From the NCBI GenBank assembly GCA_017465605.1, contig JAFTVW010000024.1:1-45526 (forward strand): a stretch of 45,526 nt of DNA. The letters are read 5' to 3'. This DNA is from Alistipes sp. (GTDB lineage: Bacteria; Bacteroidota; Bacteroidia; Bacteroidales; Rikenellaceae). Positions within the stretch are counted from its first letter, which is position 1, and every line of letters starts with the position of its first letter. Position numbers and translations under genes: made by a program. This document shows positions 20 to 14,877 of the stretch, one piece after another. A model generated the notes under the pieces. It saw only the letters and a program-made list of their open reading frames with translations, ran no database searches and was not told the origin of the DNA.

Positions 20-143
20 CAGAAGTTGTATAACAAGAGCTATTTTTAGGCCCTCGAAGCCCGAAAAACCGCAGCATACTCTGGGTATGTGAGCATTTTG
101 AGGGCAAGAGAAACAACAAAAGAGCCTTGTTAGACAGCTTCTA
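20..143 (-). repeat. Structured 3'-UTR element, copy A
   Basis: This is a palindromic element just downstream of the minus-strand oxidoreductase gene that ends at 172. Its outer arms (21-37 and 126-142) pair over about 17 bases with one mismatch and one G-U. An inner GCCC/GGGC helix and an apical hairpin (GCATAC/GTATGT around 71-92) follow. The core GTATGTGAGCATTTT is shared with copies near 3.9, 9.9, 10.0 and 14.8 kb. Orientation relative to the upstream gene is the same as in the other copies. No function is known to me. Confidence 0.75.
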
Positions 144-171
144 TCTTATTTATTACACTATACTACCACCT

Positions 172-1566
172 CTACTTGCGGGCTAACTCCACAGCCTTTG
201 TAGTGGTATAATACTTCGCCTTCATATGCGAACGTTCCCACGCTGGAATCTCTCCCTCGGTAAGATATTTCAAATAGACCTCCATCACCGAGCTGAAACG
301 CTGCTCGTGAGTCTTGGCTACCGTTGTAGGGATAATCACCTGCCACTCCTTATCGCCCGAAGCCTTGATATCGAGACCCGAATAACGATTTGCAATCTTT
401 GCAAGAGACTCTCGCAAGGTCTTCTCGAAAGCCGCCACATCATCACCCTTGCAAGCCACATAAAGCATAGGTTTGTAGCCCTGCTTAGCACCCTGACGGA
501 TAATCACATCGGCCTTTGAACCCTTCACTGTTGAGTAGTGAGTATCACCCGTACCTTCGGTGCCAACCTCTGCCATAAAGTTCCAGATAACACTCACACG
601 GCAGTTGACACCATTCAATTTGTAGTTCAGCTCGCCGTTTGAATATACCTGCAAGGTGTCGTTCACAATATCCTTTTTCAAGAATTCGGGATAGACCTGT
701 TTACCCGACACCAACTGATACTTATCAAGCGGAATAGCCGTAGCCCAACGCTTTGCCGAGGTGAACTCAATATCGCGCTTATAATCAATCTCCTGCTCAG
801 GCATTACGGTACACTGCACCAAATCCACGAGGTGGGTCGTAACATCGACAATACCCTCGCCCTGCTGCTCCACATCGAAATACCACTCGGGGCGACGCAA
901 AGGCTGACCCGACACATACTTGAAGAAGTGGTGAACACTCTCTTTTGTGATGGCAGGCTCTTCGGGTGTACCCTTCTGCATCTGGCCAAAAAGCTCAGGC
1001 ATAGCCACCAACACGCGCTGCAACTCGTTGTTAATCTCGCTGCGCTCGGTCATAATATCGTAAACCATCACACCCTTTGCCGCAGCATCATCGAGAGTCT
1101 TTTCCAACACTGCAAAACGCTCGGCATCAATAGCCATAGGTTTATCCGACAAGACATTGATTCCCGCGTCAACGGCAGCCTTTACATAGCCTGTCTTCTT
1201 GCCATTGTTACCAGCCAACACCACGACATTTCCCTTCTTCTCGGCAATCATCTTCTCCAAAAAATCATCACCTTCGTAGAGTTGCTCTTGCCACGTTGTA
1301 GGATTCTTCTCACGCTTGTTGTAATTTGCAATACGGTCGAGGTGCATCTTCGCATCATCACCCGCAGGAGCATAGACATTAACTACGGGGTCAACTTGGT
1401 CGTACATATACATCTGCACCAATGCAGCGTGGAAATGGCCTGGATCGAGCGTAAGGAGTTTCACCTCGCCCTTTGTACCGTTGAATTTGTTATCGGCTGC
1501 GGGATTTTGACACCCCACCATCATAGCCGATGCCGATAGAATCATAATTGCAAATAATTTTTTCAT
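172..1566 (-). CDS. Gfo/Idh/MocA-family oxidoreductase-like lipoprotein
   Basis: This 464-residue protein starts with a lipoprotein signal ending at Cys19 (MMVGC), so it is predicted to be exported and lipid-anchored. The N-terminal half resembles the Rossmann domain of Gfo/Idh/MocA oxidoreductases: a beta-strand start (VKLLTLDPGHFHAALV), a VVVLAGNNG segment, and the DKPMAID motif near residue 142, which matches the family's conserved EKP/DKP. The C-terminal half (about 200-460) resembles the oxidoreductase C-terminal domain found in Bacteroidota lipoproteins of this group, including a HHFFKYVSGQPLRRPEWYFD-type stretch. The family generally uses NAD(P) and acts on sugars or related compounds; the substrate cannot be read here, and an exported cofactor-dependent enzyme is odd in itself. 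A TATCTTTG box at 1655-1662 on the minus strand is a likely promoter. The gene is monocistronic and followed by structured element A. Confidence 0.8.
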   Translation of the reverse strand: MKKLFAIMILSASAMMVGCQNPAADNKFNGTKGEVKLLTLDPGHFHAALVQMYMYDQVDPVVNVYAPAGDDAKMHLDRIANYNKREKNPTTWQEQLYEGDDFLEKMIAEKKGNVVVLAGNNGKKTGYVKAAVDAGINVLSDKPMAIDAERFAVLEKTLDDAAAKGVMVYDIMTERSEINNELQRVLVAMPELFGQMQKGTPEEPAITKESVHHFFKYVSGQPLRRPEWYFDVEQQGEGIVDVTTHLVDLVQCTVMPEQEIDYKRDIEFTSAKRWATAIPLDKYQLVSGKQVYPEFLKKDIVNDTLQVYSNGELNYKLNGVNCRVSVIWNFMAEVGTEGTGDTHYSTVKGSKADVIIRQGAKQGYKPMLYVACKGDDVAAFEKTLRESLAKIANRYSGLDIKASGDKEWQVIIPTTVAKTHEQRFSSVMEVYLKYLTEGEIPAWERSHMKAKYYTTTKAVELARK

Positions 1567-1654
1567 AATATCGTTTTTTGTTACATTTTACTGTTTTATG
1601 CCGTTTTTGCAACCTTACAGGCAGCAATCTTTGCCTTAATAGCCTTTGGTCAGA

Positions 1655-1662
1655 CAAAGATA
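1655..1662 (-). promoter_or_regulatory. Putative promoter -7 box for the oxidoreductase lipoprotein
   Basis: The minus strand reads TATCTTTG, matching the Bacteroidota TAnnTTTG -7 element, about 90 bases upstream of the start at 1566. No clear -33 TTTG is seen at the right spacing. Confidence 0.5.
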
Positions 1663-1727
1663 CTGTTAATTTATTGTTTTTCTGCGAAAAAAAAGCGGTA
1701 AAAAGTTTTCAATTGTCAATTTTAGCG

Positions 1728-1735
1728 TATCTTTG
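1728..1735 (+). promoter_or_regulatory. Putative rpsA promoter -7 box
   Basis: TATCTTTG matches TAnnTTTG and lies about 105 bases upstream of the rpsA ATG. The leader that follows contains a GC-rich hairpin (GCTCG 1748-1752 with CGAGC 1768-1772). Ribosomal protein S1 commonly regulates its own translation in other bacteria, so a regulatory leader is possible but not shown. Confidence 0.5.
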
Positions 1736-1840
1736 CAGTCGCTTATGGCTCGTGCGCGCGTAAAAGGCGAGCGCAGGCACAGGCAAAAACATTTATTATT
1801 AACCATTTAACGAGCGATTGTATCGCAAAACATTTTCCAG

Positions 1841-3631
1841 ATGGAAGTATTGAACAATGTAGCAAACGAGAGTTTCGATTGGAACGCGTTTGAGAATGAT
1901 TTGGACCTCTATGGTGGTCAGTCTAAGGAGCAGGTAGCTGAGGCTTACGGCCAGACACTCTCTAACATTGCTGTTGGTGAGGTAGTAGAGGGTACAGTTA
2001 GCGAAATCAACAAGCGCGAGGTAACCGTAAACATCGGCTACAAGAGCGAGGGTATGATTCAGGCAACTGAGTTCCGTTACAACCCTGAGTTGACAGTAGG
2101 CGACAAGGTAGAGGTTTACGTTGAGTCTGTTGAGGACAAGGGTGGTGCGTTGGTTCTCTCGCACAAGAAGGCACGTCAGCTCAAGAGCTGGGATCGTGTA
2201 AACGAGGCTTTGAACAACGACGAGATTATCAAGGGTTACGTTAAGTGCCGCACTAAGGGTGGTATGATTGTTGACGTATTCGGCATCGAGGCATTCTTGC
2301 CCGGTTCGCAGATTGACGTTAAGCCTATCCGTGACTACGATATCTACGTTGACAAGACTATGGAGTTCAAGGTTGTTAAGATCAACCAGGAGTTCCGCAA
2401 CGTTGTTGTATCTCACAAGGCTCTTATCGAGGCAGAGCTCGAAGCTCAGAAGCAGGTTATTATGTCTAAGCTTGAGAAGGGCCAGATTCTTGAAGGTACA
2501 GTTAAGAACATCACCAACTACGGTGTATTTATCGACTTGGGCGGTGTGGACGGTCTTATCCACATCACAGACCTCTCTTGGGGCCGCGTAAATCACCCTG
2601 AGGAGATCGTTAAGCTCGACCAGAAGTTGAACGTTGTTATCATCGACTTCGATGAGCAGAAGAAGCGTATCGCTCTTGGTTTGAAGCAGCTCACAGCTCA
2701 CCCCTGGGAGGCTTTGGATTCAGAGCTCAAAGTTGGTGACAAGGTTAAGGGTAAGGTAGTGGTTATGGCTGACTACGGTGCATTCGTTGAGATTGCAGCT
2801 GGTGTTGAAGGTCTTATCCACGTATCAGAGATGTCTTGGAGCCAGCACTTGCGTTCAGCTCAGGAGTTCTTGAAGGTTGGCGACGAGGTAGAGGCAGTTA
2901 TCCTCACTTTGGACCGCGACGAGCGCAAGATGTCACTCGGTATCAAGCAGCTTACTCCCGATCCTTGGGAGGGCATCGATGCTAAGTACCCAGTAGGTGC
3001 AAAGTGCACTGCAAAGGTTCGCAACTTCACTAACTTCGGTGTATTCGTAGAGATCGAGGAGGGTATCGACGGTCTTATCCACATCTCAGATTTGAGCTGG
3101 ACTAAGAAGGTTAAGCACCCCAGCGAGTTCACTCAGATTGGTGCTGAGATCGAGGTTATCGTACTCGAAATCGACAAGGACAACCGCCGTTTGAGCCTCG
3201 GTCACAAGCAGTTGGAGGAGAATCCTTGGAACGAGATTGAGACTAAGTTTGCTGTTGACACAGTTCACACTGCAACAATCAGCGAGCTTACAGACAAGGG
3301 TGCTATCGTAGTATTGGGCGAGAATGTAACAGGTTTCGTACCTGCTAAGCAGCTCGTTAAGGAGGACAACACAACTTTGAAGGCTGGCGAGACAGCTGAG
3401 TTCAAGGTTATCGAGTTCTCTAAGGCTACAAAGCGTATCACTTTGTCTCACTCACGCATCTTCGAGGAGGCTAAGCGTGCTGAGATCGCAGCTGAGAAGG
3501 CTGAGAAGAAGGCAGCTGCTGATGCAACTAAGTCGTCTGTAAAGAAGATTAACGCTTCTATCGAGAAGACAACTTTGGGTGACATCGCAGGCTTGGCAGA
3601 GTTGAAGGCTGCAATGGAGAAGAGCAAGTAA
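1841..3631 (+). CDS. rpsA: 30S ribosomal protein S1
   Basis: The 596-residue product is built of six S1 (OB-fold) RNA-binding repeats, beginning near residues 45, 130, 210, 295, 380 and 470. Repeats 3-5 are the most canonical, each with a GxVxxxxxYGxFV(D/E)-type core, GL(I/V)H(I/V)S and an SLGxKQL ending. S1 binds mRNA on the small subunit and helps unwind structured leaders; that role matters in Bacteroidota, where Shine-Dalgarno sequences are weak. The length is usual for the phylum. The ATG at 1841 is chosen because no in-frame upstream start fits and the N-terminus (MEVLNNVANESFDWNAFE) looks natural. The C-terminal tail is Lys/Ala/Glu-rich. It has its own promoter and a strong terminator at 3654. 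Codon use is strongly biased, as expected for a highly expressed gene. Confidence 0.97.
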   Translation: MEVLNNVANESFDWNAFENDLDLYGGQSKEQVAEAYGQTLSNIAVGEVVEGTVSEINKREVTVNIGYKSEGMIQATEFRYNPELTVGDKVEVYVESVEDKGGALVLSHKKARQLKSWDRVNEALNNDEIIKGYVKCRTKGGMIVDVFGIEAFLPGSQIDVKPIRDYDIYVDKTMEFKVVKINQEFRNVVVSHKALIEAELEAQKQVIMSKLEKGQILEGTVKNITNYGVFIDLGGVDGLIHITDLSWGRVNHPEEIVKLDQKLNVVIIDFDEQKKRIALGLKQLTAHPWEALDSELKVGDKVKGKVVVMADYGAFVEIAAGVEGLIHVSEMSWSQHLRSAQEFLKVGDEVEAVILTLDRDERKMSLGIKQLTPDPWEGIDAKYPVGAKCTAKVRNFTNFGVFVEIEEGIDGLIHISDLSWTKKVKHPSEFTQIGAEIEVIVLEIDKDNRRLSLGHKQLEENPWNEIETKFAVDTVHTATISELTDKGAIVVLGENVTGFVPAKQLVKEDNTTLKAGETAEFKVIEFSKATKRITLSHSRIFEEAKRAEIAAEKAEKKAAADATKSSVKKINASIEKTTLGDIAGLAELKAAMEKSK

Positions 3632-3653
3632 TTTGGTCGAATCCCAATAAATG

Positions 3654-3685
3654 AAAATCCCGAGCTCAGCGGCTCGGGATTTTTT
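3654..3685. terminator. Bidirectional intrinsic terminator after rpsA
   Basis: A perfect 12-bp stem (3654-3665 with 3672-3683; core AATCCCGAGC) has a 6-base loop and is followed by a T run on the plus strand. The minus strand has TTTTCATTTATT after the stem, so it could also end the transcript of the convergent phosphodiesterase gene and its element array. Confidence 0.9.
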
Positions 3686-3716
3686 ATTAGTAACCTATAT
3701 AGCTTATATGCTGTAA

Positions 3717-3770
3717 ATTCATATCGTGTGAGGTTTTTGAAGTCAAGGCAGATGCCAAACAACCCTACAT
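3717..3770 (-). repeat. Structured 3'-UTR element, copy B1 (deleted core)
   Basis: Both outer arms of the element are recognisable (attcatat...gaggtttttgaag on the left, gcagatgccaaacaaccctacat on the right), but the central apical hairpin with the GCATAC/GTATGT core is absent. This looks like an internal-deletion derivative of the neighbouring copies. Confidence 0.55.
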
Positions 3771-3795
3771 CTCTCGCATATAAAAATTCATATAA
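3748..3795. repeat. 48-bp exact direct repeat, first copy
   Basis: The bases from gcagatgccaaac to aattcatataa are identical to 3872-3919, 124 bases further on. The repeat spans the end of one structured element and the start of the next, so the array has grown by tandem duplication or recombination. Confidence 0.9.
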
Positions 3796-3895
3796 TGTAG
3801 GCTGTTTTGAGACTGCTCGAAGGCAAGAGAATCCGCAGCATACCAACGTATGTGAGCATTTTCACGACCCAGCAGATGCCAAACAACCCTACATC
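3789..3895 (-). repeat. Structured 3'-UTR element, copy B2
   Basis: The left arm (3789-3809, TAATGTAGGCTGTTTTG) pairs imperfectly with the right arm (3880-3894, CAAACAACCCTACAT). The core has GCAGCATAC near 3835 and GTATGTGAGCATTTT near 3848-3862. The middle helix is poor here, as though the two halves come from different copies. Confidence 0.7.
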
Positions 3896-3919
3896 TCTCG
3901 CATATAAAAATTCATATAA
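3872..3919. repeat. 48-bp exact direct repeat, second copy
   Basis: This is identical to 3748-3795. Only two copies are present, with no regular spacer, so it is not a CRISPR array. Confidence 0.9.
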
Positions 3920-4031
3920 CGGAGGTGTTTTGAAGATGCGATTGAGTGAAAAGCGCAGCATACTTGGCGTATGTGAGCATTTTCACGATTGAGCAGATGC
4001 CAAAACAACCCGTTAGATGGATTTTTATCGG
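3913..4031 (-). repeat. Structured 3'-UTR element, copy B3
   Basis: The left arm TAACGGAGGTGTTTTG (about 3917-3932) pairs with CAAAACAACCCGTTA (4001-4015). The pairing extends outward through ATGAATTTTTAT-like sequence against ATAAAAATCCAT. The middle helix is GTGAAAA/TTTTCAC and the apical hairpin GCATAC/GTATGT. It abuts the stop codon of the phosphodiesterase gene at 4032. Confidence 0.8.
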
Positions 4032-4943
4032 TTACTCGAATATCTCAACAATAGCCCTTCCTCGCCACACATCGGGAGTCTTTGCACCAAAAATATAGGC
4101 AATGGTAGGAGCTGTGTCGTAACGAACAACAGGCTGCTCAATCTTGTAACCCTTCTTTACACCGGGGCCAAAGAATATGAGCGGAGCTTCCATCTCGTCC
4201 ATTGTTGTTCCTCCGTGACCCTTATTGATACCACCGTGATCCGACACAATCATAAAGATTGTATTGTCGTACATTCCAGCCTGCTTTGTCGCCTCGACAA
4301 TCTTTGCAATGTGAGCATCGAGTTCGGGCAGACGATTCATATAAGGCTCTGAGCCCCAGCCGTGACCGTGACCTTCGGCATCGGGCGAATCGAATATACA
4401 GATAGAGAATTGAGGCTTGTTCTCCTTCAAATATGAGATGTATGCCTCGGTGATATCGGCACTGCGGCTCTCACCCATAGGAACGTGCTTGTGATAGCTG
4501 ACAGCCTTGTTGTCAATCAAATCACCCTGAGTTGCCCACTCATACAAGGCGCAGGTGTTGATTTCGGGATTATGCTCACGAAGTACGGTGAAGATTGTGG
4601 GGAATATGCCATTCTTACCCAGTGCAATAGACGGGAAATCGGGTTTACGACTACCCCAAGTGTTGTATCCGTGCATCTCTGGACCGACACCCATATACAT
4701 TGAAGCCCAATTACAAGCACTCGACGAAGGGAGAATACTACGCGCTTGGAGTGTCCACGCTCCATTCTCCATCATCATCTTTACGGTAGGCATATTGGCC
4801 GCCTCAACGGTGTTGCCAGCCAAGCCATCAAGGCCAATCATCACAACGTGCTTCACGCCACGCACGCCACCATTCTCATTCGTACAACTGCTCACACCTG
4901 CAAGCAGGATAAGAGAAGATACTAATAGTAAAATCTGTTTCAT
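4032..4943 (-). CDS. Type I phosphodiesterase/alkaline phosphatase-fold lipoprotein
   Basis: The 303-residue product starts at ATG 4943; a longer reading to 5009 adds 22 residues before a clean lipoprotein signal (MKQILLLVSSLILLAGVSSC), so the internal ATG is preferred. It belongs to the type I phosphodiesterase/nucleotide pyrophosphatase branch of the alkaline phosphatase superfamily. The visible metal and nucleophile motifs are VVMIGLDGL at the N-terminus, the Ser/Thr nucleophile segment SILPSSSACNWASM, FDSPDAEGHGHG, and the late SDHGG...GHGG metal site. Such enzymes hydrolyse phosphodiester or pyrophosphate bonds using two metals, here outside the inner membrane. The natural substrate is not readable. 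A TAAATTTG box on the minus strand at 4970-4977 may be the promoter. Its TAA stop lies in the edge of structured element B3. Confidence 0.85.
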   Translation of the reverse strand: MKQILLLVSSLILLAGVSSCTNENGGVRGVKHVVMIGLDGLAGNTVEAANMPTVKMMMENGAWTLQARSILPSSSACNWASMYMGVGPEMHGYNTWGSRKPDFPSIALGKNGIFPTIFTVLREHNPEINTCALYEWATQGDLIDNKAVSYHKHVPMGESRSADITEAYISYLKENKPQFSICIFDSPDAEGHGHGWGSEPYMNRLPELDAHIAKIVEATKQAGMYDNTIFMIVSDHGGINKGHGGTTMDEMEAPLIFFGPGVKKGYKIEQPVVRYDTAPTIAYIFGAKTPDVWRGRAIVEIFE

Positions 4944-4969
4944 ATAAATAAGTATTTTGGTTTCTATCA

Positions 4970-4977
4970 CAAATTTA
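4970..4977 (-). promoter_or_regulatory. Putative promoter for the phosphodiesterase gene
   Basis: The minus strand reads TAAATTTG, matching TAnnTTTG, about 27 bases upstream of the chosen start at 4943. This also supports that start over the one at 5009, which lies upstream of the box. Confidence 0.45.
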
Positions 4978-5052
4978 AGAAAAATAATGCACAACGCATA
5001 AAATATCACATTGCAGATTTTGCCAAAGTGTAATTCCTACACAAAAATTCAC

Positions 5053-5060
5053 TATATTTG
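5053..5060 (+). promoter_or_regulatory. Putative promoter for the DUF2264 gene
   Basis: TATATTTG matches the Bacteroidota -7 element, 23 bases upstream of the ATG at 5084. No well-spaced -33 TTTG is visible. Confidence 0.5.
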
Positions 5061-5083
5061 TTATGCAATACAAATCGTAAGTT

Positions 5084-6328
5084 ATGGGAAAGCGAATATT
5101 TATTTTGGCAATGCTTTTATGCATAATGAGCAGTGGCTCATATCTCAATGCTGCATCACCCAAAGCAACTCGACAATATTGGGTAAATACAATGCTACGC
5201 ATTGTCACACCTGTTTATGAGAATCTTGCAAACGAGACTCTTCGTAAAAATATGCCCGTTGAGGTTAACGACGGGTCGAATACGGGCAAGCGTGCCGACG
5301 TAAGCCATTTGGAAGCTCTTGGCCGCTCCTTCAATGGAATTGCACCGTGGCTCAAATTGGGTGACGATACGAGCCGCGAGGGTGAACAACGTCGAGCAAT
5401 GACGCAGTTGGTTGTAAAGGCTATAACCAATGCAGTCAACCCATCAAGCCCCGACTATATGCCATTTGATGGCCCGGGCACACAACCTCTTGTCGATGCA
5501 GCGTTCTTCGCAGAGGGGTTGCTTCGCTCGAAAGATGTAATTTGGCCTATGCTCGATTCCCAAACTCGCCAAAGAATCATCGACGAGCTCAAACGCTCAC
5601 GCAAGATTCGCGCGTGGGAAAATAACTGGTTACTGTTTTCTGCCACCGTTGAAGCCGCTCTGTTGCAATTTACGGGAGAGTGTGATTTCTCGAAGATAAA
5701 ATATGCACTCGACCGTCACAACGAGTGGTACAAAGGCGATGGCTGGTATGGCGATGGTCCATCGTTTCATCTCGACTACTATAATAGCTATGTAATACAA
5801 CCTATGTTGGTCGATGTAACCGCAGTAGTAAAGCAGAACGCAGATAAGGGAGAGGAGTATGCGACCTATGGTGCTATGTACGATAAATATGTAAAGCGTA
5901 TGGCTCGCTTTGCAGCTCAACAGGAGATGTTGATTTCGCCCGAGGGTACATTCCCAATGTTGGGACGTTCTTGCGGATACCGTTATGGCGCATTCCAAGC
6001 ACTTGCCCACACTTCGCTGCTCGGCACACTACCCAAAGGTGTATCGCCCGCGCAAGTTCGCTCGGCCTTAACGGCTGTGATTAAACGCCAGACCGTGAAA
6101 TCGATGTTCGACGCCGAAGGTTGGTTGACGCTTGGCTTCTGTGGCCATCAGCCCGATGTTGCAGAGAATTATGTCTCAACAGGAAGTGCTTATCTCTGCT
6201 GCTTTGTGTTTCTGCCTTTGGGATTGCCTGCCGACGCTGAGTTTTGGAGTGGCAAAGATGAGAAATGGTCTTCACAACGGGTATGGGCGGGTGAAGCGGT
6301 TATGCGCGATGCGGCCATCAAGTATTAG
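5084..6328 (+). CDS. DUF2264 family protein, secreted
   Basis: The 414-residue product has a cleavable signal peptide (about residues 1-24, ending SYLNAASP). The rest matches the DUF2264 family: NDGSN...SHLEALGRSFNGIAPWL near residue 65-95, YMPFDGPGTQPLVDAAF, RAWENNWLLFSATVE and GDGWYGDGPSFHLDYYNSYV. The aromatic-rich, alpha-helical pattern fits an (alpha/alpha)-barrel related to polysaccharide lyases and unsaturated glucuronyl hydrolases, so a role in glycan breakdown is plausible but unproven. The length is typical. It is transcribed alone, with its own promoter and a terminator shared with rpsT. Confidence 0.85.
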   Translation: MGKRIFILAMLLCIMSSGSYLNAASPKATRQYWVNTMLRIVTPVYENLANETLRKNMPVEVNDGSNTGKRADVSHLEALGRSFNGIAPWLKLGDDTSREGEQRRAMTQLVVKAITNAVNPSSPDYMPFDGPGTQPLVDAAFFAEGLLRSKDVIWPMLDSQTRQRIIDELKRSRKIRAWENNWLLFSATVEAALLQFTGECDFSKIKYALDRHNEWYKGDGWYGDGPSFHLDYYNSYVIQPMLVDVTAVVKQNADKGEEYATYGAMYDKYVKRMARFAAQQEMLISPEGTFPMLGRSCGYRYGAFQALAHTSLLGTLPKGVSPAQVRSALTAVIKRQTVKSMFDAEGWLTLGFCGHQPDVAENYVSTGSAYLCCFVFLPLGLPADAEFWSGKDEKWSSQRVWAGEAVMRDAAIKY

Positions 6329-6342
6329 AAGTTAGGAAACAA

Positions 6343-6858: not shown

Positions 6859-6930
6859 TAGTCCATAGGAGAGTCGAACTCCTCTTTCAAGAATGAAAAT
6901 CTTGCGTCCTAACCGATAGACGAATGGACC
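6859..6930 (-). tRNA. tRNA-Glu (anticodon TTC)
   Basis: The 72-base minus-strand gene folds as a full cloverleaf. The acceptor is GGTCCAT/ATGGACT, the D stem GTCT/GGAC, the anticodon stem CAAGA/TCTTG with loop TTTTCAT, and the T stem AGGAG/CTCCT with loop TTCGACT. The first acceptor pair is G-U, the discriminator base is A, and CCA is not encoded. The anticodon TTC reads Glu codons GAA and GAG. Confidence 0.96.
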
Positions 6931-8482: not shown

Positions 8483-8490
8483 CTATCACC

Positions 8491-8518: not shown

Positions 8519-8535
8519 ATTCAGACTGACTTTGG

Positions 8536-9606
8536 CTATTTCAGTAAATCGCCCACATTCTCGATAATGCACATATTTGTCCAATCGTCACCCTCGTTGA
8601 AGAAATACATCTTGTCGCCCTCATAAAGAATTCCTAAAACTACGGAGCTACTTTGTGTATTATATACCTTGCTTTTGCCACTCTTCAAATTGCATACGGC
8701 AAGATAATCCTTCCTTTTATGACGATATGTGAATGTAAGGTAATTCTTTGTAAGATTTATATTTCGAATATAGCGACCTTCTGATTTTGCTCTATTAATC
8801 AAAGCCTTCTCTTCGGCTACTGTGGAAAATTCATCATAGAACATTCCGTCAAAACCTATTTTAAGTGCATTTGTCACCTTGAACCTTGAATCTATATTAT
8901 ATATATAGCCAAATTGCTCCAAATTGGCACTATTACCAAAAGTAAAATAAAAACATGTACCCCACAAAGAGGTCTTGATCACATCTTCTCCAACATACTC
9001 CACAAACTTGAAATTCTTATCATAACGGGCAAGTATGGGCAGAAATTCATCTTCATTATCAGTAATAGTTGCCAATTGTGCAAGATAGCCATCACCGAGA
9101 GGATCTATATTCAAAAGAGAAGATTTTTCACTTGGTTTCTTAATCTCATACTCGGCTACAAACTTTCCTTCGGGAGTGAATTTCAAAATCCTGAGTCTAG
9201 AATCCAAGACATAGATATAACCATCTTTAACCCAAACATTACGATGAGTACCACCAGAAAGCTCATACTGGGCATTACCCGTTTGGGTAATGGTATTTAC
9301 ATATTCGCCCTTGCGATTATAAACCATAATTTTATTAAGTCCAGCCTGTGCAAGATATGAACCGATAAGGAATTTATCTCCAAACGGATATGGAGGTGTA
9401 GGCATATACCCCACCAGATTTTTCATATCTTCACCCGGATCGAATTTAATCTTCGGGAGATTGTCAATATTCAAAATCTCGATATTGTCGGTTTTAATAT
9501 CAATCGTCATTAATTTGTCTGACTTTGCTTGGGCATATACGTCTGAAATCGCACAAATCATCATTCCAGCAAAGATTGTGGTTGTAAGCAAAAATAGTCT
9601 TTTCAT
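8536..9606 (-). CDS. 6-bladed beta-propeller family secreted protein
   Basis: ATG 9606 is chosen because it begins a normal signal peptide (MKRLFLLTTTIFAGMMICAI...AQA); a reading to 9657 adds 17 residues without purpose. The mature protein (about 320 residues) shows repeated four-stranded blade patterns such as NKIMVYNRKGEYVNTI, DGYIYVLDSRLRILKFTPEGKFV and LAVCNLKSGKSKVY. These are typical of the Bacteroidota 6-bladed propeller (NHL-like) family. Members are often encoded near SusC/D or in isolation and their ligands are mostly unknown. Base composition is more AT-rich than the neighbouring genes. It is transcribed alone from a strong promoter at 9698 to a terminator at 8491. The leader contains a run of nine C (9675-9683). 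Confidence 0.75.
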   Translation of the reverse strand: MKRLFLLTTTIFAGMMICAISDVYAQAKSDKLMTIDIKTDNIEILNIDNLPKIKFDPGEDMKNLVGYMPTPPYPFGDKFLIGSYLAQAGLNKIMVYNRKGEYVNTITQTGNAQYELSGGTHRNVWVKDGYIYVLDSRLRILKFTPEGKFVAEYEIKKPSEKSSLLNIDPLGDGYLAQLATITDNEDEFLPILARYDKNFKFVEYVGEDVIKTSLWGTCFYFTFGNSANLEQFGYIYNIDSRFKVTNALKIGFDGMFYDEFSTVAEEKALINRAKSEGRYIRNINLTKNYLTFTYRHKRKDYLAVCNLKSGKSKVYNTQSSSVVLGILYEGDKMYFFNEGDDWTNMCIIENVGDLLK

Positions 9607-9697
9607 AATTACAGGTTTTAAGTTTGTCATTACATTAGTATTCAAAGGGGATAACACTAATTCTCACCGAATTACCCCCCCCCGCTCTTTCATATGA

Positions 9698-9729
9698 CAA
9701 AGTTAATATTGTTGTACGAAATTTCCAAA
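9698..9729 (-). promoter_or_regulatory. Promoter for the 6-bladed propeller gene
   Basis: The minus strand has TTTG (9726-9729), 20 bases, then TAACTTTG (9698-9705). This is a near-perfect Bacteroidota housekeeping promoter, about 92 bases before the ATG. Confidence 0.8.
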
Positions 9730-9794
9730 TATTTTATCAGAAAATTTTAGCATTTTTTTTTGATGCGTACAACGGGAGCCTATAAACGAATAAA

Positions 9795-9840
9795 AAAGAT
9801 GGGAGTGTCTAACAAGTTTTTTAGACACTCCCTTTTTGTT
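9795..9840. terminator. Bidirectional terminator downstream of adk 3' UTR
   Basis: GGGAGTGTCT (9801-9810) pairs with AGACACTCCC (9823-9832). T runs flank it on both strands. On the minus strand it would end the adk transcript after structured elements C2 and C1. Confidence 0.85.
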
Positions 9841-9841
9841 A

Positions 9842-9961
9842 GGAGTTGTATAACATGAGGGATTTCAAGACTTGCGTAGCCCGAAAAAGCGCAGTTTACT
9901 CGGTGTAAATGAGCATTTTGAGGGCAAGTGTAACGTAGAAATCACCTTGTTAGACAACTTC
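9842..9961 (-). repeat. Structured 3'-UTR element, copy C1
   Basis: The left arm TTGTATAACATGAGGGATTTC (about 9846-9866) pairs with GAAATCACCTTGTTAGACAA on the right. The middle helix is ACTTGC/GCAAGT plus GCCC/GGGC. The apical hairpin is GTTTAC/GTAAAT, replacing GCATAC/GTATGT of copies A, B and C2 while keeping the pairing. Confidence 0.8.
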
Positions 9962-9992
9962 AATTCTCGTAAAATCTCCAACTGATGGAGGT

Positions 9993-10107
9993 CATATAAT
10001 GTAGGCTATTTTGGGGCTGCTCGAAGGCAAGAGAATCCGCAGCATACCAACGTATGTGAGGATTCGAGAACAAGGCAGACGCCAAAAGAGCCACATTAGA
10101 TGAATTT
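9993..10107 (-). repeat. Structured 3'-UTR element, copy C2
   Basis: The left arm TAATGTAGGCTATTTTGG pairs with CCAAAAGAGCCACATTA. The middle helix is GAATCC/GGATTC and the apical hairpin GCATAC/GTATGT. Its edge overlaps the last codons of adk. Confidence 0.8.
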
Positions 10108-10683
10108 TTATCGGTTAGCGTCAATAGCCGCACATATACGCTCAAACACCTCGTCCATAGTACCCACTCCATCAATAGCAACATACTTACCTTGCTTTGA
10201 ATAGTGGTCAGCTACGATGGCTGTCTGCTCGCGATAAACAGAGATACGGTTGCGGATAACATCTTCCGATGCATCGTCGGCACGACCCGAATCCTTACCA
10301 CGCAACAAGATACGCTTCACCAACTCCTCCTCTGGTACGTCCATATAGACCATCACGTTCACGCTCTCGCCACTCTCGGCCAAGATGCGGTCGAACTCCT
10401 CGGCCTGAGCTGTTGTACGGGGGAAACCATCGAAGATATTACCAGCAGTATCTTTATGCTCGGCCATATAGTTGCGAATCATTCCGATTACGATTGAATC
10501 GGGAGCCAACTTACCAGCCTCGATATACTCCTGCATACTCTTACCAAGCTCCGTACCGCGTGAAATCTCACCACGAATTACCTCGCCCGTAGAGATGTGA
10601 TTGATGTTATACTTCTCCTTGATGCGCACAGCCTGAGTACCCTTACCGCAGCCGGGTGCGCCAAACAAAATAATATTAAGCAT
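10108..10683 (-). CDS. adk: Adenylate kinase
   Basis: The 191-residue enzyme catalyses ATP + AMP to 2 ADP in the cytoplasm. It shows the Walker A loop GAPGCGKGT (residues 8-16), the AMP-binding STGE and GFPRT motifs, and RADDASEDVIRNR in the position of the LID arginines. It is the short-LID type without zinc-binding cysteines, as usual in Bacteroidota. A TAATTTTG box at 10718-10725 is the probable promoter. The last two codons and the TAA stop fall inside the conserved edge of structured element C2, so the final residues may have been set by insertion of that element. Two elements and then a terminator form the 3' UTR. Confidence 0.97.
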   Translation of the reverse strand: MLNIILFGAPGCGKGTQAVRIKEKYNINHISTGEVIRGEISRGTELGKSMQEYIEAGKLAPDSIVIGMIRNYMAEHKDTAGNIFDGFPRTTAQAEEFDRILAESGESVNVMVYMDVPEEELVKRILLRGKDSGRADDASEDVIRNRISVYREQTAIVADHYSKQGKYVAIDGVGTMDEVFERICAAIDANR

Positions 10684-10717
10684 AATTATTGTGTTTATTA
10701 TTTAACCTAACCAATGC

Positions 10718-10725
10718 CAAAATTA
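10718..10725 (-). promoter_or_regulatory. adk: Putative adk promoter
   Basis: The minus strand reads TAATTTTG, matching TAnnTTTG, about 35 bases upstream of the ATG. No clear -33 element was found. Confidence 0.45.
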
Positions 10726-10831
10726 CAAAATCTTACTTGAAAATAACTCTTTTCCAGCAACATTTTTTCAAGTATTCTGCCACAAAGGTAGCATTTTCGC
10801 CACATAAGGCTCAATAGCCACAACTTTTTGC

Positions 10832-10839
10832 TAACTTTG
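10832..10839 (+). promoter_or_regulatory. Putative promoter for the lipoprotein at 10862
   Basis: TAACTTTG matches the -7 consensus, 22 bases before the ATG. Confidence 0.55.
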
Positions 10840-10861
10840 CATCAAACAAAAGAGATTTTCT

Positions 10862-11548
10862 ATGAGACAACATATATTTTTCGCCGCCACACTTTTGCTT
10901 TTGCTATGCCCATCGTGCAATAGAGAACTCCCCACGCAGAGCGTTGCAGGATATATCGTAAGAGCTGACTTGGAGCAAGCGATTGTGGTCGAGGTGACCG
11001 ACTCGGCCTCGGTGAAATTACCCTCGCCCCGCAAGATGAATTTTGCGATTGACGACAACACAATCTACGAGAGCAATGGCGTTATCGAAGGCAACATCGT
11101 AGAAGTGGTATATCAACCCGCACACCAGCAGACAACATTCACGGCACTCGAAATCACCACCGACGACACCTTTCCGCGAGCATTGGGTCGTTGGAGCAAC
11201 GGTGAACACAACAGATTCAAAATCGACATCGAGCTACTGCCAAACGGCAAGATAGCCCAGCATCTACCCTCACAGACCGTAGAGTTCAAGCAATGGCAAC
11301 TCTCGGAGCGAGAGGATACCATCACAATATCGGGCGAGGTATCGTTGCCACCCATCATCGAAGAGCGTTCCAAAAAGACGGCATCGAAACCCGACAGCAA
11401 AAACGCCGACGAGCAGGAGTCTCTGCCCCCTGCCCGACGCAAAATGGAATTTACAACAACGGCCGCCATTGGAATTGATGGCGACCGCAGAACCCTTACC
11501 ATTCTGACCGACAAAAAAGGTCAATCGGTATTATATCGCAACGAGTAG
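10862..11548 (+). CDS. Lipoprotein of unknown function
   Basis: The 228-residue protein has a lipoprotein signal ending LLCPSC (Cys19). I do not recognise the family with certainty. The middle part (DTFPRALGRWSNGEHNRFKIDIELLPNGKIAQH) resembles lipocalin-like domains of Bacteroidota lipoproteins, with WxxxEHNRF and a later KQWQLSEREDTITI beta-hairpin. A charged Lys/Ser/Glu linker lies near residues 165-190. It is transcribed alone, with a heptamer repeat just after its stop, and is convergent with thiL. Confidence 0.65.
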   Translation: MRQHIFFAATLLLLLCPSCNRELPTQSVAGYIVRADLEQAIVVEVTDSASVKLPSPRKMNFAIDDNTIYESNGVIEGNIVEVVYQPAHQQTTFTALEITTDDTFPRALGRWSNGEHNRFKIDIELLPNGKIAQHLPSQTVEFKQWQLSEREDTITISGEVSLPPIIEERSKKTASKPDSKNADEQESLPPARRKMEFTTTAAIGIDGDRRTLTILTDKKGQSVLYRNE

Positions 11549-11553
11549 AGCTC

Positions 11554-11595
11554 GGCACTCGGCAATAGGCAATAGGCAATAGGCACTCGGCACCC
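11554..11595. repeat. Heptamer tandem repeat (GGCAATA/GGCACTC)
   Basis: Six consecutive 7-base units are present: GGCACTC, three of GGCAATA, GGCACTC and GGCACCC, with degenerate units continuing to about 11613. It lies between the convergent lipoprotein and thiL genes. No terminator was recognised in this gap. Confidence 0.85.
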
Positions 11596-11648
11596 TGTAC
11601 CCTGCACCCAGCACTAACGGCCTTACTCCGCATTGCCAAAGTTTGGAT

Positions 11649-12680
11649 TTAATCCTTAAATCCTTGCGCGCGAAGTTTGATGTCGCTACCATCGGGAGTA
11701 ACCAAATAGGCTCCCGTTGATTCGCGTGTGATGTGACCCACAACATCAACCACACCCAAACGCATCACCTGCTCCTGCATTGCAAGCGGCACGGTGAACA
11801 TCAACTCGTAATCCTCGCCACCATTCAAAGCCGCCACCACAGGGTCTATATGCATCTCCTCGGCAAGCTGGGTTGTCTGCTTGGCAATGGGTATGCGGTC
11901 AAGGTAGATTCTCGCACCACATTTAGAAGCCTTACAAATCTGCAATACCTCGCTGGCCAAGCCGTCCGAGAGGTCAATCATCGAGGTCGGCACAATCTTC
12001 TCCTCGGCCAACAAATCTATGATATCCTTGCGGGCACGGGGTTTCAGATAGCTCTGCAACAGATATTCATACCCCTTGAACTGCGGCTCGGGATTCTCAA
12101 CATTCGATAGCACGCGCTTCTCGCGCTCCAAGAGTTGCAGGCCCATATACGCAGCACCCAAATTGCCCGTAATACAAATCAAGTCGTTGAACTGCGCACC
12201 GCTGCGATAGCTTATCTGCTTACGCTTGGCGCGACCTATGGCCGTAATGTTAATCACAAGGCCCGTCATCGATGCCGACGTATCGCCACCCACCAAATCT
12301 ACACCCAGCTCCTTGCAGGCAAAGGCCATACCCTCGTACAAATCCTCCAACGCCTCAACGGGTATCTTCGACGATACGCCGAGCGAAAGGATAATCTGTT
12401 CAGGGCGGGCGTTCATTGCCAATATATCGCTCACGCCGACCGTCGCGGCCTTATATCCGAGGTGCTTCAACGGAAAGTAGGTTAAATCGAAATCGATTCC
12501 CTCCAACAACGAATCGGTCGAGATAACTATTCCATCATCACGACCTGCGGCCACCACAGCGGCATCGTCGCCCACACCTCGGAGGGTGGTTTTGTTTGCA
12601 GGTGAAAAATCCTTTGTAAGATGGTCAATCAATCCGAACTCTCCCAGCTCGGCAATCTCGGTACGCTTTCTCTGGCTCAT
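11649..12680 (-). CDS. thiL: Thiamine-monophosphate kinase
   Basis: The 343-residue enzyme phosphorylates thiamine monophosphate to thiamine diphosphate with ATP, the last step of cofactor synthesis. The family motifs are visible: GEFGLIDHL near the start, GVGDDAAVV (about 36-44), STDSLLEGIDF with the metal aspartates, GGDTS (about 131) and, towards the C-terminus, IDLSDGLASE and GGEDYEL. The length is usual. No other thiamine gene is nearby, so ThiL acts from a separate locus. A TATCTTTG box lies about 20 bases upstream of its ATG, with heptamer repeats behind it. Confidence 0.95.
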   Translation of the reverse strand: MSQRKRTEIAELGEFGLIDHLTKDFSPANKTTLRGVGDDAAVVAAGRDDGIVISTDSLLEGIDFDLTYFPLKHLGYKAATVGVSDILAMNARPEQIILSLGVSSKIPVEALEDLYEGMAFACKELGVDLVGGDTSASMTGLVINITAIGRAKRKQISYRSGAQFNDLICITGNLGAAYMGLQLLEREKRVLSNVENPEPQFKGYEYLLQSYLKPRARKDIIDLLAEEKIVPTSMIDLSDGLASEVLQICKASKCGARIYLDRIPIAKQTTQLAEEMHIDPVVAALNGGEDYELMFTVPLAMQEQVMRLGVVDVVGHITRESTGAYLVTPDGSDIKLRAQGFKD

Positions 12681-12700
12681 AGAATAGAAATTATTTTACG

Positions 12701-12748
12701 CAAAGATACAGATTAATTCAAAAATCAAAATTCAAAATTCAAAATTGT
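12701..12748 (-). promoter_or_regulatory. thiL: thiL promoter with AATTTTG heptamer repeat over the -33 region
   Basis: On the minus strand a -7 box TATCTTTG (12701-12708) is preceded by repeated AATTTTG/ATTTTGA units (about 12718-12748). These place a TTTG every seven bases across the -33 region. The same arrangement occurs at 16855-16908. Confidence 0.65.
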
Positions 12749-12886
12749 TGCCCTTATTCTCACGATTTCAGCCATAGCGATATCGAAAAGTCTATTTTTC
12801 AAAAAAATCTGCACCCGATTTCGTCTTTTTTGCTAATTTCACGTCATATAGTCAAACGCAGCGTTTGAAATATAAACATTTACATT

Positions 12887-13372
12887 ATGAAACTTAACTC
12901 AAACAACAATATCGAACAACTTGCCGAGTGGATAGATGAGTGGCAGGAGCAGCTATTTCGCTACGCCTTCTATCGCGTGGGTAATCGTAGCGATGCCGAA
13001 GATGTTGTACAAGATGCCCTTCTGAAAATAGCATCTACCACAACACCCATCAGCAATCCAAAGGCATATCTTTTCCGCATAGTCGCGAATGGTTGTGTGG
13101 ATTCTCTGCGACAAAAATCTCTATTGCAACCTCTGCAAGAGAGAATCCCTGCCACTTCATATAGCGAAGAGATGGAGGCCCAAGAGGAGTTCAAGCGCAT
13201 CGAGCGACTGCTATCCCGCCTACCCGAGCAACAAAGCGAGGTAATCCGCCTGCACATACACGCAGGATTAAAGTTTACCGAGATTGCCGAGACGTTGGAG
13301 CAACCCGTAACAACTATCAAAAGCCGATTTGCGAGCGGCATAGAGAAATTAAAACAACAATTTATCAATTAA
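12887..13372 (+). CDS. ECF-type RNA polymerase sigma factor
   Basis: The 161-residue protein has both ECF regions. Region 2 spans about residues 18-85 (LFRYAFYRVGNRSDAEDVVQDALLKI, PKAYLFRIVANGCVD). Region 4 spans about 105-158 (LLSRLPEQQSEVIRLHI, LKFTEIAETLEQPVTTIKSR). Such factors redirect RNA polymerase to a small regulon and are usually held by a membrane anti-sigma factor. The gene 20 bases downstream encodes a single-pass membrane protein and is the likely partner. Neither a FecR-like sensor nor a SusC/D pair is adjacent, so this is not the common glycan-uptake arrangement. Confidence 0.93.
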   Translation: MKLNSNNNIEQLAEWIDEWQEQLFRYAFYRVGNRSDAEDVVQDALLKIASTTTPISNPKAYLFRIVANGCVDSLRQKSLLQPLQERIPATSYSEEMEAQEEFKRIERLLSRLPEQQSEVIRLHIHAGLKFTEIAETLEQPVTTIKSRFASGIEKLKQQFIN

Positions 13373-13391
13373 ACCCCAAAACACGCGCCTT

Positions 13392-14639
13392 ATGAAAAAG
13401 CAAGAATATTCAACCTCAGATGAGCAGATTATCCAGATGCTCACACCGAAAGTAGAAGTAACTCCGTCGGCAGACCTGCGCGAGAGAATTCTCAATGCGG
13501 CACAAGCCGCTGGCCAGCAGACATCTGCGCCACAAAAGCGACACACAAGACCTCGCATTAGCTATTGGTTGGGAGCTATCGGCTCGGTCGCAGCAGTTGT
13601 TGCAGTAGCGATAACAATGACGCTGAACACCCCAGCTTACGCAGCACGCAAGTATTTTTCAAATGCCTTAATCGCAGTACAAGATGCAAAGACAATGGTA
13701 ATGAAATTAAAGGTGCGCACCGAGTCCGACGAGCCAATAGATTACATCAATCCCTCGCTCGGCTTCACCCCCGCAACTGTCAAAGTAATATACGGTGAGC
13801 CAATGCTGTGGTGCATCGAAAAAGAGAATGGCCGCACATTACTATATAAAGGAGCCGACAAGGCTGGCGATTATGTATATCAATGGATAGGAGGCAAAGA
13901 TGGGAATATGGGTTGGAAACAAAATCCCGAAGGATATGTTAACGGAGATTTGGCAATTATGCTTGACCCTCGTCTGCTGCTTAACGCCGAGAGCCGCCTT
14001 GCAGAAGATCGCAAAGGAACAAAATACGAGATTCTCGACAATGGAGAGTTGGTTATCGTCAGAGCCTCGACAACAGCACAAGGCAACTACTCTCAGAGCG
14101 ATTATATGATGAACACATCTTTGGCCGAGGCCAACACGATTAGAGTATATTCGTTTGCAAAGAGAACAGGAGAGCTTGTGCAGATGCGAATCGACTTTGT
14201 GGTTGACGACAAGCCTATCACGGTTATCGAAACCCAAAGCATCGCCTACGATGAACCGCTGACTCCCAATGATTTGTCGAACAAAGACCTCAGCACGATT
14301 TCGTTCCAGCAGTTAGATATTGCTAAATCTGCTTCGTCACCACTTGCAGGCATCACCGCCGATGAGGCTGCCAAGATAATTTTGCAGGCAATGAAGAGTT
14401 GGGACAAAGAGATTTTAGGAACTGCAATGGCCTACTACGGGGATTATATACCTAAATTGGAATCTATCTATAAAGGATTAGAGGTAAAATCGATAGGAAA
14501 GTCATTCTCATCGGGATTGTACCCGGGCAAATTCGTAAAGTGTAAGGTTATCTTGGCCGATGGTCGCAAAGAGACCTTGACACTCGCACTCCGCAACGAC
14601 AATAAGAATAAGGTATGGCTTCTTGACGGAGGTCTATAA
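13392..14639 (+). CDS. Putative anti-sigma factor with large periplasmic domain
   Basis: The 415-residue protein has a cytoplasmic N-terminal segment of about 55 residues, one transmembrane helix (about 57-77) and a long exported part. The N-terminal segment (EQIIQMLTPKVEVTPSADLRERIL) lacks the His/Cys residues of zinc-binding anti-sigma domains. The exported part (about 80-310) has the beta-rich pattern of LolA/MucB-like folds (YFSNALIAVQDAKTMVMKLKV, MLDPRLLLNAESR). The last 100 residues (ITADEAAKIILQAMKSWDKEIL...KVWLLDGGL) look like an NTF2-like DUF4878-type domain. Gene order and topology make it the probable antagonist of the sigma factor upstream. The signal it senses is unknown. Confidence 0.65.
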   Translation: MKKQEYSTSDEQIIQMLTPKVEVTPSADLRERILNAAQAAGQQTSAPQKRHTRPRISYWLGAIGSVAAVVAVAITMTLNTPAYAARKYFSNALIAVQDAKTMVMKLKVRTESDEPIDYINPSLGFTPATVKVIYGEPMLWCIEKENGRTLLYKGADKAGDYVYQWIGGKDGNMGWKQNPEGYVNGDLAIMLDPRLLLNAESRLAEDRKGTKYEILDNGELVIVRASTTAQGNYSQSDYMMNTSLAEANTIRVYSFAKRTGELVQMRIDFVVDDKPITVIETQSIAYDEPLTPNDLSNKDLSTISFQQLDIAKSASSPLAGITADEAAKIILQAMKSWDKEILGTAMAYYGDYIPKLESIYKGLEVKSIGKSFSSGLYPGKFVKCKVILADGRKETLTLALRNDNKNKVWLLDGGL

Positions 14640-14661
14640 TAGAAGTTACATAACAACAAAG

Positions 14662-14690
14662 TAGGGCAAGCAGACAACTTGCCCTATATT
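14662..14690 (+). terminator. Terminator of the ECF sigma operon
   Basis: TAGGGCAAG (14662-14670) pairs with CTTGCCCTA (14678-14686) and is followed by a short T-rich stretch. Confidence 0.75.
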
Positions 14691-14710
14691 TTATGCAGAA
14701 ATAACCACAC

Positions 14711-14749
14711 ACAAAAAAAAGCAAGACCCCTGTAAAGGAATCTTGCTCT
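14711..14749 (-). terminator. Terminator of the rpsF-rpsR-rplI operon
   Basis: On the minus strand AGCAAGA pairs with TCTTGCT across a 14-base loop with further pairing, followed by eight T's. It lies just after structured element D. Confidence 0.8.
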
Positions 14750-14761
14750 AAACATATTTTG

Positions 14762-14877
14762 CTTGTATTAAAGTGGCTTTTCAAGGCTTGCGAAGATTTC
14801 AAAAGCGGAGTTTACTCGTCGTAAATGAGCATTTTGAAATTGAGCGTAACGCCGAAAAGACCTTTAAGACAACAAAA
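14762..14877 (-). repeat. Structured 3'-UTR element, copy D
   Basis: TTGTATTAAAGTGGCTTTTC pairs with GAAAAGACCTTTAAGACAA. The middle helix is GATTTCAAAA/TTTTGAAATT and the apical hairpin GTTTAC/GTAAAT. It fills the space between the rplI stop and the operon terminator. Confidence 0.8.

Follow-up and report, generated by a model that had tools for sequence, protein, structure and literature searches.

Mobile palindromes behind gene ends of Alistipes and their possible kinship with the ERIC repeats of enterobacteria

The hairpin-forming elements that lie behind genes of Alistipes sp., a gut bacterium, are mobile and have spread recently; they are not a fixed family of 3'-UTR RNAs. Probably, they are non-autonomous mobile palindromes belonging to an ERIC-like family that crosses phyla, in which they form the branch found in Bacteroidota. 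The window, i.e., the whole stretch of DNA analysed here, comprises 45,526 nt of contig JAFTVW010000024.1 (assembly GCA_017465605.1).

Matches to a search model reveal six intact elements of 119–124 bp each in the window, all of them on the minus strand (Table 1). An earlier note had counted about seven copies; six are indeed intact, but the remaining one, B1, is only a truncated copy. B1 was not picked up by the model search of the window; its sequence resembles the 5' portion of B2 together with a short remnant. B2, in turn, is a chimera, as judged by its direct repeats: a 37-nt portion of its 5' half agrees to 92% with B3, and its 3' half agrees to 95% with C2 over 73 nt. Copy A starts 29 nt past the stop codon of the gene at 172–1566 (minus strand), and its right-hand terminator is interrupted by the contig start. 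B3 starts 6 nt past the stop codon of the gene at 4032–5009 (minus), C2, with the inner stem GAATCC/GGATTC, begins at the stop codon of adk (10108–10683, minus), and D begins immediately past that of rplI (14878–15315, minus). C1 is the second of a tandem, behind C2. The terminator-like hairpin next to it travels with the TTTAC subfamily. An apical pattern finds four matches in the window (≤3 mismatches) versus none in 100 dinucleotide shuffles, which proves only that the repeats are not due to chance, since the pattern was written after the copies had been seen. In Rfam, a tRNA is the sole match of the window at the gathering score; the four element loci searched gave one match, far below that score (E 0.41).

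Table 1. Elements, kernels and terminator hairpins in the window
Feature	Positions	Strand	Evidence
Terminator hairpin remnant of the CATAC subfamily	1..20	-	letters run on into GTGGTTGTCCGACAAACTTGTTGGACAACCAC in other copies
Copy A, intact	21..142	-	model match, 130.5 bits
Kernel of copy A, CATAC type	70-99	-	kernel pattern
B1, truncated and degenerate copy	3717..3790 (approximate)	-	direct repeats with B2
B2, intact	3783..3906	-	model match, 71.2 bits
B3, intact	3907..4025	-	model match, 95.4 bits
Terminator-like hairpin behind C1	9801..9832		same hairpin behind other TTTAC-subfamily copies
C1, intact, young	9841..9962	-	model match, 134.4 bits
Kernel of C1, TTTAC type	9890-9919	-	lies within C1
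C2, intact	9987..10108	-	model match, 89.9 bits
Host terminator of rplI	14720..14747		sequence comparison with relatives, by eye
D, intact	14758..14877	-	model match, 105.3 bits

Each element is a single long hairpin of ~120 nt. At its centre sits a conserved kernel of ~35 nt. Its apical stem has 5 bp, its internal loop reads TCA / CT(G/C)C, and a short G-C stem closes it. Below the kernel follows a half-conserved collar, CGTTACGCT ... CGCAAGCC. The arms are free in sequence, with their complementarity maintained, and the outer ends vary from branch to branch, while the kernel is constant. The motif GAGCATTTT / GCAG, which had been noticed around the apex, is conserved, but it had been read on the plus strand. 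On the gene strand it becomes AAAATGCTCA ... CTGCG, and these are the flanks of the internal loop around the apical stem.

The genome to which the window belongs contains 94 copies according to the model search (107 matches, from which 10 antisense duplicates and 3 weak matches with E above 0.009 were subtracted). Among them are three subfamilies whose members are near-identical at separate loci, and every subfamily has a terminator of its own behind it. In genomes of the same genus, the number of matches ranges from 2 to 77 in 17 of 24, and in the other seven the search found none. Downstream of rplI, no element is present in four relatives (G009, G013, G014 and G015), the rplI of which is 95–97% identical; by eye, element-less relatives have a similar terminator at this position. 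Conservation of the element at orthologous rplI or adk sites was not found across the genus. The mobility is concluded from the near-identical subfamilies, from the 0 to 77 copies in species of one genus and from the lack of an element behind rplI in the four relatives. The same observations do not bear out the earlier note where it set the elements apart from mobile REP/MITE-type elements: they are short, occur in many copies, and a site occupied in one species lacks the element in close relatives. That all copies could be one recently mobile MITE had been considered there too. Recently mobile they are; one sequence family they are not, since their arms differ between branches.

The elements could be MITEs that depend on a DDE insertion sequence; a transposase of the own or a related genome would then cut at ordinary terminal inverted repeats, namely either the outer arms or the two ends of element plus terminator. 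In young units, the terminator's right arm (CTTGTTAGACA) and the element's 5' end (TGTCTAACAAG) are in fact inverted complements, and PMC2229807 presumes that RUP is mobilised by an IS630-type transposase. However, the terminal sequences vary between branches while the kernel stays, and no target duplication is seen by eye at the ends of the units. At the rplI site, inspection by eye yielded no clear TA duplication, and the exact empty site is present in no single relative. We consider a DDE transposase unlikely.

The elements are mostly in one orientation and often adjoin stop codons. A gene on the same strand lies upstream of all six intact copies in the window and of 78 of the 84 genome copies for which a gene was called no more than 700 nt upstream (calls by a simple ORF caller, one of the 94 copies being left out). 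Half of these same-strand copies (39/78) start between −5 and +10 nt from the stop codon. The placement downstream of genes in one orientation, which the earlier note had proposed, is thereby confirmed, and its position between stop codon and terminator was recognized by eye, without a count, in many genome flanks. The relatives conform to this picture with 22 of 27, and so do the loci of a genome scan with 49 of 65. For the latter count, 70 of 102 matches were chosen by hand, with omission of antisense, partial, contig-edge, most second tandem and non-Bacteroidota matches and a few more. Of the 78 copies, 57 lie between convergent genes; among 40 gene ends in the window, 14 do so.

The stems had been claimed to covary, and they do. 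In an alignment of 117 matches from Bacteroidota, among them two antisense duplicates and three partial rows, both sides have changed in 35 of 39 pairs. The cells are paired to 91.2%; sliding the partner by 1–3 columns reduces this value to 40.7–47.2%, and out of 500 column shuffles none matched any of five covariation measures. So strong a covariation, the location past stop codons with one orientation and the enrichment at convergent genes would suit a cis-acting 3'-UTR RNA element, i.e., a hairpin for stability, termination or protein binding that is selected on the mRNA strand and spread by recombination. It would also be in line with such an element that G-U pairs exceed A-C mismatches (212 versus 137) when all 39 pairs are counted. 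This excess, however, is largely due to two fixed collar positions, which contribute about 150 G-U; the collar alone has 169 G-U versus 62 A-C, the kernel alone 11 versus 5. In the arms of 53 representatives the relation is inverse, with 39 A-C mismatches versus 21 G-U pairs (five of the 117 rows dropped, i.e., 2 antisense and 3 partial), whereas the acceptor stems of tRNA, taken as control, have 9 G-U and no A-C. Since G-U pairs do not exceed A-C in the arms, the match between the two arms is not maintained by selection on the mRNA strand, and for the arms the earlier claim of selection at the RNA level is not sustained. Strong covariation alone is thus no proof that an RNA is functional: selection at the RNA level should favour G-U pairs, and the arms show no such preference.

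The folding of the two strands points in the same direction. In 170 of 190 cases the better folder is the antisense strand, the mRNA strand being the weaker one; about half of this advantage is explained by composition, according to a shuffle control, and it is therefore used only as support. The sites behind rplI and adk, not conserved across the genus, and the seven same-genus genomes without a match also argue against an RNA element, which appears quite unlikely to us. A process at the DNA level explains the matched arms better than does selection on the mRNA strand. Arm-to-arm conversion, offered in the earlier note as the alternative, fits better at this level, where we infer rather than observe it.

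For the non-autonomous mobile palindromes that we favour, a mechanism may be proposed. An enzyme acting in trans would recognise the kernel in its folded form, for which single-stranded or extruded DNA is the most likely substrate, and would insert the element near gene ends. The arms would be kept matched by copying from arm to arm (template switching), not by selection on the mRNA. Once inserted, the element would form a 3'-UTR hairpin in the transcript, and its insertion at gene ends would be tolerable, since young subfamilies bring their own terminator. ERIC has a reported effect on the stability of the upstream mRNA, and the present elements may act similarly. The genomes to be searched for the machinery are the carriers with recent activity, i.e., with near-identical copies and with sites that are empty in relatives.

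The kernel is not confined to Bacteroidota. With a search model trained on these alone, the proteobacterial matches being absent from the training set, it was detected within unrelated complementary arms in Winslowiella (11 matches), Alteromonadaceae (15), Gallionellaceae (7) and Marinobacterium (2) at E ≤ 0.1; the kernel pattern used for the genome scan biases which loci could be returned. In the family of Winslowiella, 28 of 60 genomes (Winslowiella included) have matches with E ≤ 0.01, one of them 57. The orientation of the proteobacterial set is not significant (11 of 17 on the same strand, p 0.33; one Cryomorpha locus is included and L264 omitted, its coordinates being unsure); a second set gave 2 of 4. 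Two ERICs of E. coli were the top two of six matches in 80 kb of stretches picked for holding ERIC, and their kernels align with that of the model. These matches are weak (E 0.049 and 0.18), and an AT-rich chance match comes next with 17.2 bits. Of the two ERICs, one follows the stop codon of ybhI and the other that of cusC, both oriented like the Bacteroidota elements. By blastn (E ≤ 1), a pair of ERICs did not match any of 29 enterobacterial kernel loci; the link to ERIC thus rests on kernel, collar, size and placement. A small core is common to the Alistipes elements and to hairpins of distant bacteria, among these perhaps the ERIC of E. coli. More tentatively, one may think of an ancient class of hairpins that extends from Bacteroidota to Enterobacteriaceae, ERIC included, with a putative enzyme reading the folded kernel on one DNA strand, so that all parts outside the kernel would be free to change while the pairing holds; this is conceivable, yet we rather doubt it. 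A kernel shared across phyla and embedded in free arms tells what the putative machinery must recognise.

ERIC, also known as IRU or RU-1, is the closest known system. The enterobacterial repeat measures 127 bp and, like the elements of the window, is one long imperfect palindrome. On the gene strand its centre reads TCA-CTTAC-TTAT-GTAAG-CTC, and a CTGCGT..CGCT collar adds to the likeness, as does the location of the two E. coli copies directly past stop codons in the same orientation. It differs by its arms, which are unrelated to those of the Bacteroidota elements, and the sequence match is weak. De Gregorio in 2005 reportedly found ERIC near stop codons and in one orientation. In the literature covered, in parts, ERIC is described as mobile, with no proven enzyme named; TA at the ends and target duplication are given in Table 1 of PMC2229807, and its distribution in the covered part of PMC10969869 is Enterobacteriaceae plus Vibrionaceae. 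The same literature, which includes parts of PMC3733652, PMC2759123 and PMC2267715 and leaves most subscription journals outside the search, reports neither ERIC-like elements in Bacteroidota nor a shared kernel.

Other palindromes of enterobacteria differ more, or in other respects. YPAL (RU-2), a palindrome of Yersinia, has 168 bp, a length unlike the ~120 nt of the present elements; its insertion in or beside dyad symmetries, with filled and empty sites, is reported in the covered part of PMC2229807. As relatives by kernel, YPAL and RU-3 were discarded: in their printed sequences (one for YPAL), neither strand contains even a loose version of the kernel pattern. The enterobacterial palindromes of Winslowiella's family are multicopy and have the same kernel and hairpin layout, but arms different from those in Bacteroidota, and they show no blastn match to ERIC. 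A candidate for their identity is the 142-bp 'Kristensenii39' repeat listed in the part of PMC2847712 covered.

REP elements and BIMEs, which are associated with RAYT, are likewise palindromic, extragenic and multicopy. One could take the GCAG or GGAG that directly precedes the short stem on the antisense strand for a REP tag, and the elements for REPs moved by a Y1 transposase. Yet they are about three times longer and have free arms, unlike palindromes of 20–40 nt. A match to the Y1 domain (PF01797) was obtained in none of 26 genomes of the genus, the own genome included, while a control search was positive in 5 of 14, E. coli among them. The RAYT reading is thereby largely refuted, and we give it practically no credit.

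Integron attC sites, finally, are recognised by the folded bottom strand instead of by sequence. They have a strand asymmetry and a conserved base with the R boxes RYYYAAC/GTTRRRY. As in attC, structure outlasts sequence in the present elements, which follow stop codons in one orientation and fold better as bottom strand; TCTAAC...GTTATA occurs in many of them. They are, however, conserved at the apex and free at the base, whereas attC shows the opposite; in the alignment, inspected by eye, the base arms vary and the R boxes are not kept between branches, and the window copies follow adk and rplI, outside any cassette array. An identity with attC was therefore rejected and is, in our opinion, very improbable. 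Should the ancient class of hairpins considered above exist, with its putative enzyme reading the folded kernel, it would amount to a mobile element recognised by structure and, in principle, comparable to the attC sites of integrons.

The window is contig C20 in a draft assembly of 2.3 Mb and 64 contigs. A covariance model of 122 positions and 39 pairs, built from an alignment of 12 copies, yields 107 matches in this genome at E ≤ 0.1, of which 94 are kept once 10 antisense matches at the same places and 3 with E > 0.009 are left out. Six of the 94 lie in the window (A, B2, B3, C1, C2 and D). The copies listed in the earlier note are present; one of them, B1, is truncated and was missed by the model in this search. 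Among named records bearing the conserved kernel, Alistipes, Rikenellaceae and Bacteroidaceae are the prevailing labels; many stem from ruminant-gut samples.

Each copy is a single hairpin. An apical loop of about 4-6 nt sits on an apical stem of 5 bp, mostly TTTAC/GTAAA or CATAC/GTATG; below follow an internal loop, in which TCA faces CTGC or CTCC, and a G-C closing stem. Then come an inner stem of free sequence (around AAAATGC/GCTTTT, GAATCC/GGATTC, GACAAATCC/GGTTTGTC and others), next a collar that is half conserved (CGTTACGCT ... CGCAAGCC), and last the outer arms, again of free sequence. The kernel is likely the recognised part. The arms, free as they are, stay paired: in an alignment of 117 Bacteroidota matches, which was fitted to the structure and includes 2 antisense duplicates and 3 partial rows, 91.2% of the cells pair and 35 of the 39 pairs have changed on both sides, while sliding the 3' partner leaves a pairing of just 40.7-47.2%. 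The covarying stems described in the earlier note are borne out.

The same note had considered RNA-level selection on the arms. That we deal with an RNA element kept by selection on the mRNA strand is, however, unlikely. Selection for pairing on that strand should leave more G-U pairs than A-C mismatches. Over all 39 pairs this is so (212 vs 137), as it is in the collar (169 vs 62, some 150 of the G-U coming from two positions that have G-U as their standard pair) and in the kernel (11 vs 5), and collar and kernel are compatible with upkeep at either the RNA or the DNA level. The outer and inner arms behave in the opposite way: 21 G-U stand against 39 A-C in 53 representatives less than 75% identical (p 0.03), 32 against 70 in all 112 rows, and 31 against 50, then 28 against 36, in coarser clusters. 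Acceptor stems of 22 tRNAs from the fetched loci, a small control in which ARAGORN itself requires pairing, gave 9 G-U and no A-C (Fisher p 0.0003 versus the arms). The complementary strand is the better folder in 170 of 190 elements with RNA parameters and in 186 with DNA parameters; since, in shuffles of 32 representatives, composition by itself gives -2.9 kcal/mol, versus an observed -6.1 (p 9e-5), about half of this edge is composition. Among 19 proteobacterial and ERIC copies the sign is the same in 15, not significantly so against shuffles (p 0.10). We conclude that the arms are not kept matched by mRNA-strand selection. Two options are left, selection on the other strand and a process at the DNA level, for instance template switching; the arms might be matched by arm copying, and a folded DNA strand might be what is recognised.

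Copies lie near stop codons. With genes called by our own ORF caller, 93 of the 94 copies were examined; for 8 the contig stretch held no gene upstream and for 1 the gene was more than 700 nt away, and in 78 of the other 84 the nearest upstream gene (≤700 nt) is on the same strand. Half of these (39/78) begin -5 to +10 nt from the stop codon, 17 at 11-40 nt and 16 at 41-150 nt, 11 of the latter, all at ≥119 nt, standing behind another copy. On the downstream side 57 of the 78 face a convergent gene; for the window's gene ends, element sites included, the figure is 14 of 40. The shared orientation claimed earlier holds for this genome, and the bias recurs in relatives (22 of 27 loci with an upstream gene; 28 given) and in hand-picked loci of the genome scan (49 of 65; 70 given), but in 17 proteobacterial and Cryomorpha copies it is not significant (11/17, p 0.33), and in four further proteobacterial loci it is not visible (2/4). 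In several relatives the element, judged by eye, is inserted just behind an existing terminator.

Copies have been gained at gene ends. Three subfamilies each occupy many loci in near-identical form; a short spacer links each to a terminator hairpin of its own, and only beyond that do the flanks diverge. Several contigs break off within a copy, which fits recent repeats. At E ≤ 0.01 and with strict filters, by which weak matches are lost, 17 of 24 same-genus genomes have 2-77 matches and 7 none; outside the family but in the same order, 1-8 matches are present in 6 of 16 genomes. Among 23 rplI loci searched with the model, one of which (L278) covers just 76 nt behind the stop codon, an element is found in the window's genome only; in the relative G005 a below-threshold piece resembling the element's 3' part lies further on. 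Four relatives with rplI 95-97% identical have just a short spacer and terminator there, without the element. Behind adk, among the 12 loci listed, it occurs in the window's genome and in the relative G010 only, the G010 copy being of a different subfamily and a few bases behind the stop codon. Elements are therefore not inherited in place but gained repeatedly at gene ends.

At rplI the left flank (TAATTTTG) is like that of the relatives G014 and G009 and the right flank (GCAAAATATGTTTA) like that of G013, which suggests, from this one place, that the target is a small palindrome such as TTTTG^CAAAA; the exact empty site is in no single relative compared. In L017, L019, L032 and other young copies the terminator's 3' arm (CTTGTTAGACA or CTTGTTGGACAA) and the element's 5' end (TGTCTAACAAG) are nearly complementary, which would allow an alternative structure with the element paired to its own terminator. 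One copy is apparently split at the apical stem-loop, both halves retaining TTTAC-N5-GTAAA; they resemble attL and attR, as if an integrative element had used the kernel as its attachment site.

Coordinates of element copies and other features, in the window or in fetched loci (L numbers)
Feature	Location	Strand	Remark
Copy B1	window 3717-3790	minus	truncated
Copy D	window 14758-14877	minus	at rplI
tRNA gene	window 6859-6930	minus	sole Rfam match at gathering score in the window
Tandem 9-bp repeats	window 19902-19981		CAAATCGGG-like; near 3' end of ORF 18792-20009
Tandem arrays, three copies each	L110:1501-1859; L100:1501-1869; L094:1501-1864		then, by eye, the apparent truncated beginning of another copy
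Short runs related to heptamer ATTCAAA	L079 after 1623; L110 after 1859; L043 and L046 before element		adjoin several copies (by eye)
Split copy, half on contig C19	L117:1501-1621		runs into tyrosine integrase gene (Phage_integrase)
Split copy, half on contig C58	L116:1501-1618		preceded by foreign sequence
Copy in record labelled Rickettsia endosymbiont	L139:1413-1532		84.0 bits
Second copy in the same record	L139:3005-3122		51.4 bits

Within the reach of a profile search REP/RAYT is ruled out (Y1 transposase in none of 26 genus genomes), nothing in Rfam fits, and the base boxes of attC are not kept in the alignment as read by eye.

Over bacterial and archaeal species genomes the kernel pattern occurs in at least 117 stretches, 80 of which were listed. 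Labels outside the Bacteroidota among the stretches listed include Gallionellaceae, Alteromonadaceae, Marinobacterium, Winslowiella, Rickettsia endosymbiont and Borreliella. The records under the Rickettsia and Borreliella labels may be misplaced contigs; the Rickettsia-labelled copies could stem from transfer or contamination, or be related to the Rickettsia palindromic elements. The first four of these labels show hairpins around the kernel with arms unlike the window's, and a model built solely on Bacteroidota rows matches them 7, 15, 2 and 11 times, respectively (E ≤ 0.1); it matches Cryomorpha 33 and Cryptobacteroides 34 times, each of them represented by a row among those used for training. 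Within Winslowiella's family, which we take to be Enterobacteriaceae, 28 of 60 genomes, Winslowiella included, have matches to this model at E ≤ 0.01. One genome of the family (G081, 3.2 Mb) has 57 and would be well suited to a search for recent activity.

By blastn, 29 loci from the Winslowiella family gave no match to two ERICs. When the Bacteroidota model was scored at every position of two E. coli stretches of 40 kb, each with one ERIC, six matches at E ≤ 10 appeared, and the ERICs ranked first and second, with weak scores (20.3 bits, E 0.049, and 18.0 bits, E 0.18; next an AT-rich match, 17.2 bits). The TCA-CTTAC-TTAT-GTAAG-CTC of ERIC aligns on the kernel and its CTGCGT..CGCT on the collar; both ERICs start a few bases past the stop codons of ybhI and cusC, oriented as here. 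Common descent of these elements and ERIC is likely, though not proved. The explanation that we consider best, and rather probable, is a Bacteroidota branch of an ERIC-like, cross-phylum family of miniature mobile palindromes. Its members would be transcribed and, by analogy, might act on the upstream mRNA, an effect reported for ERIC in Yersinia (PMC2229807).
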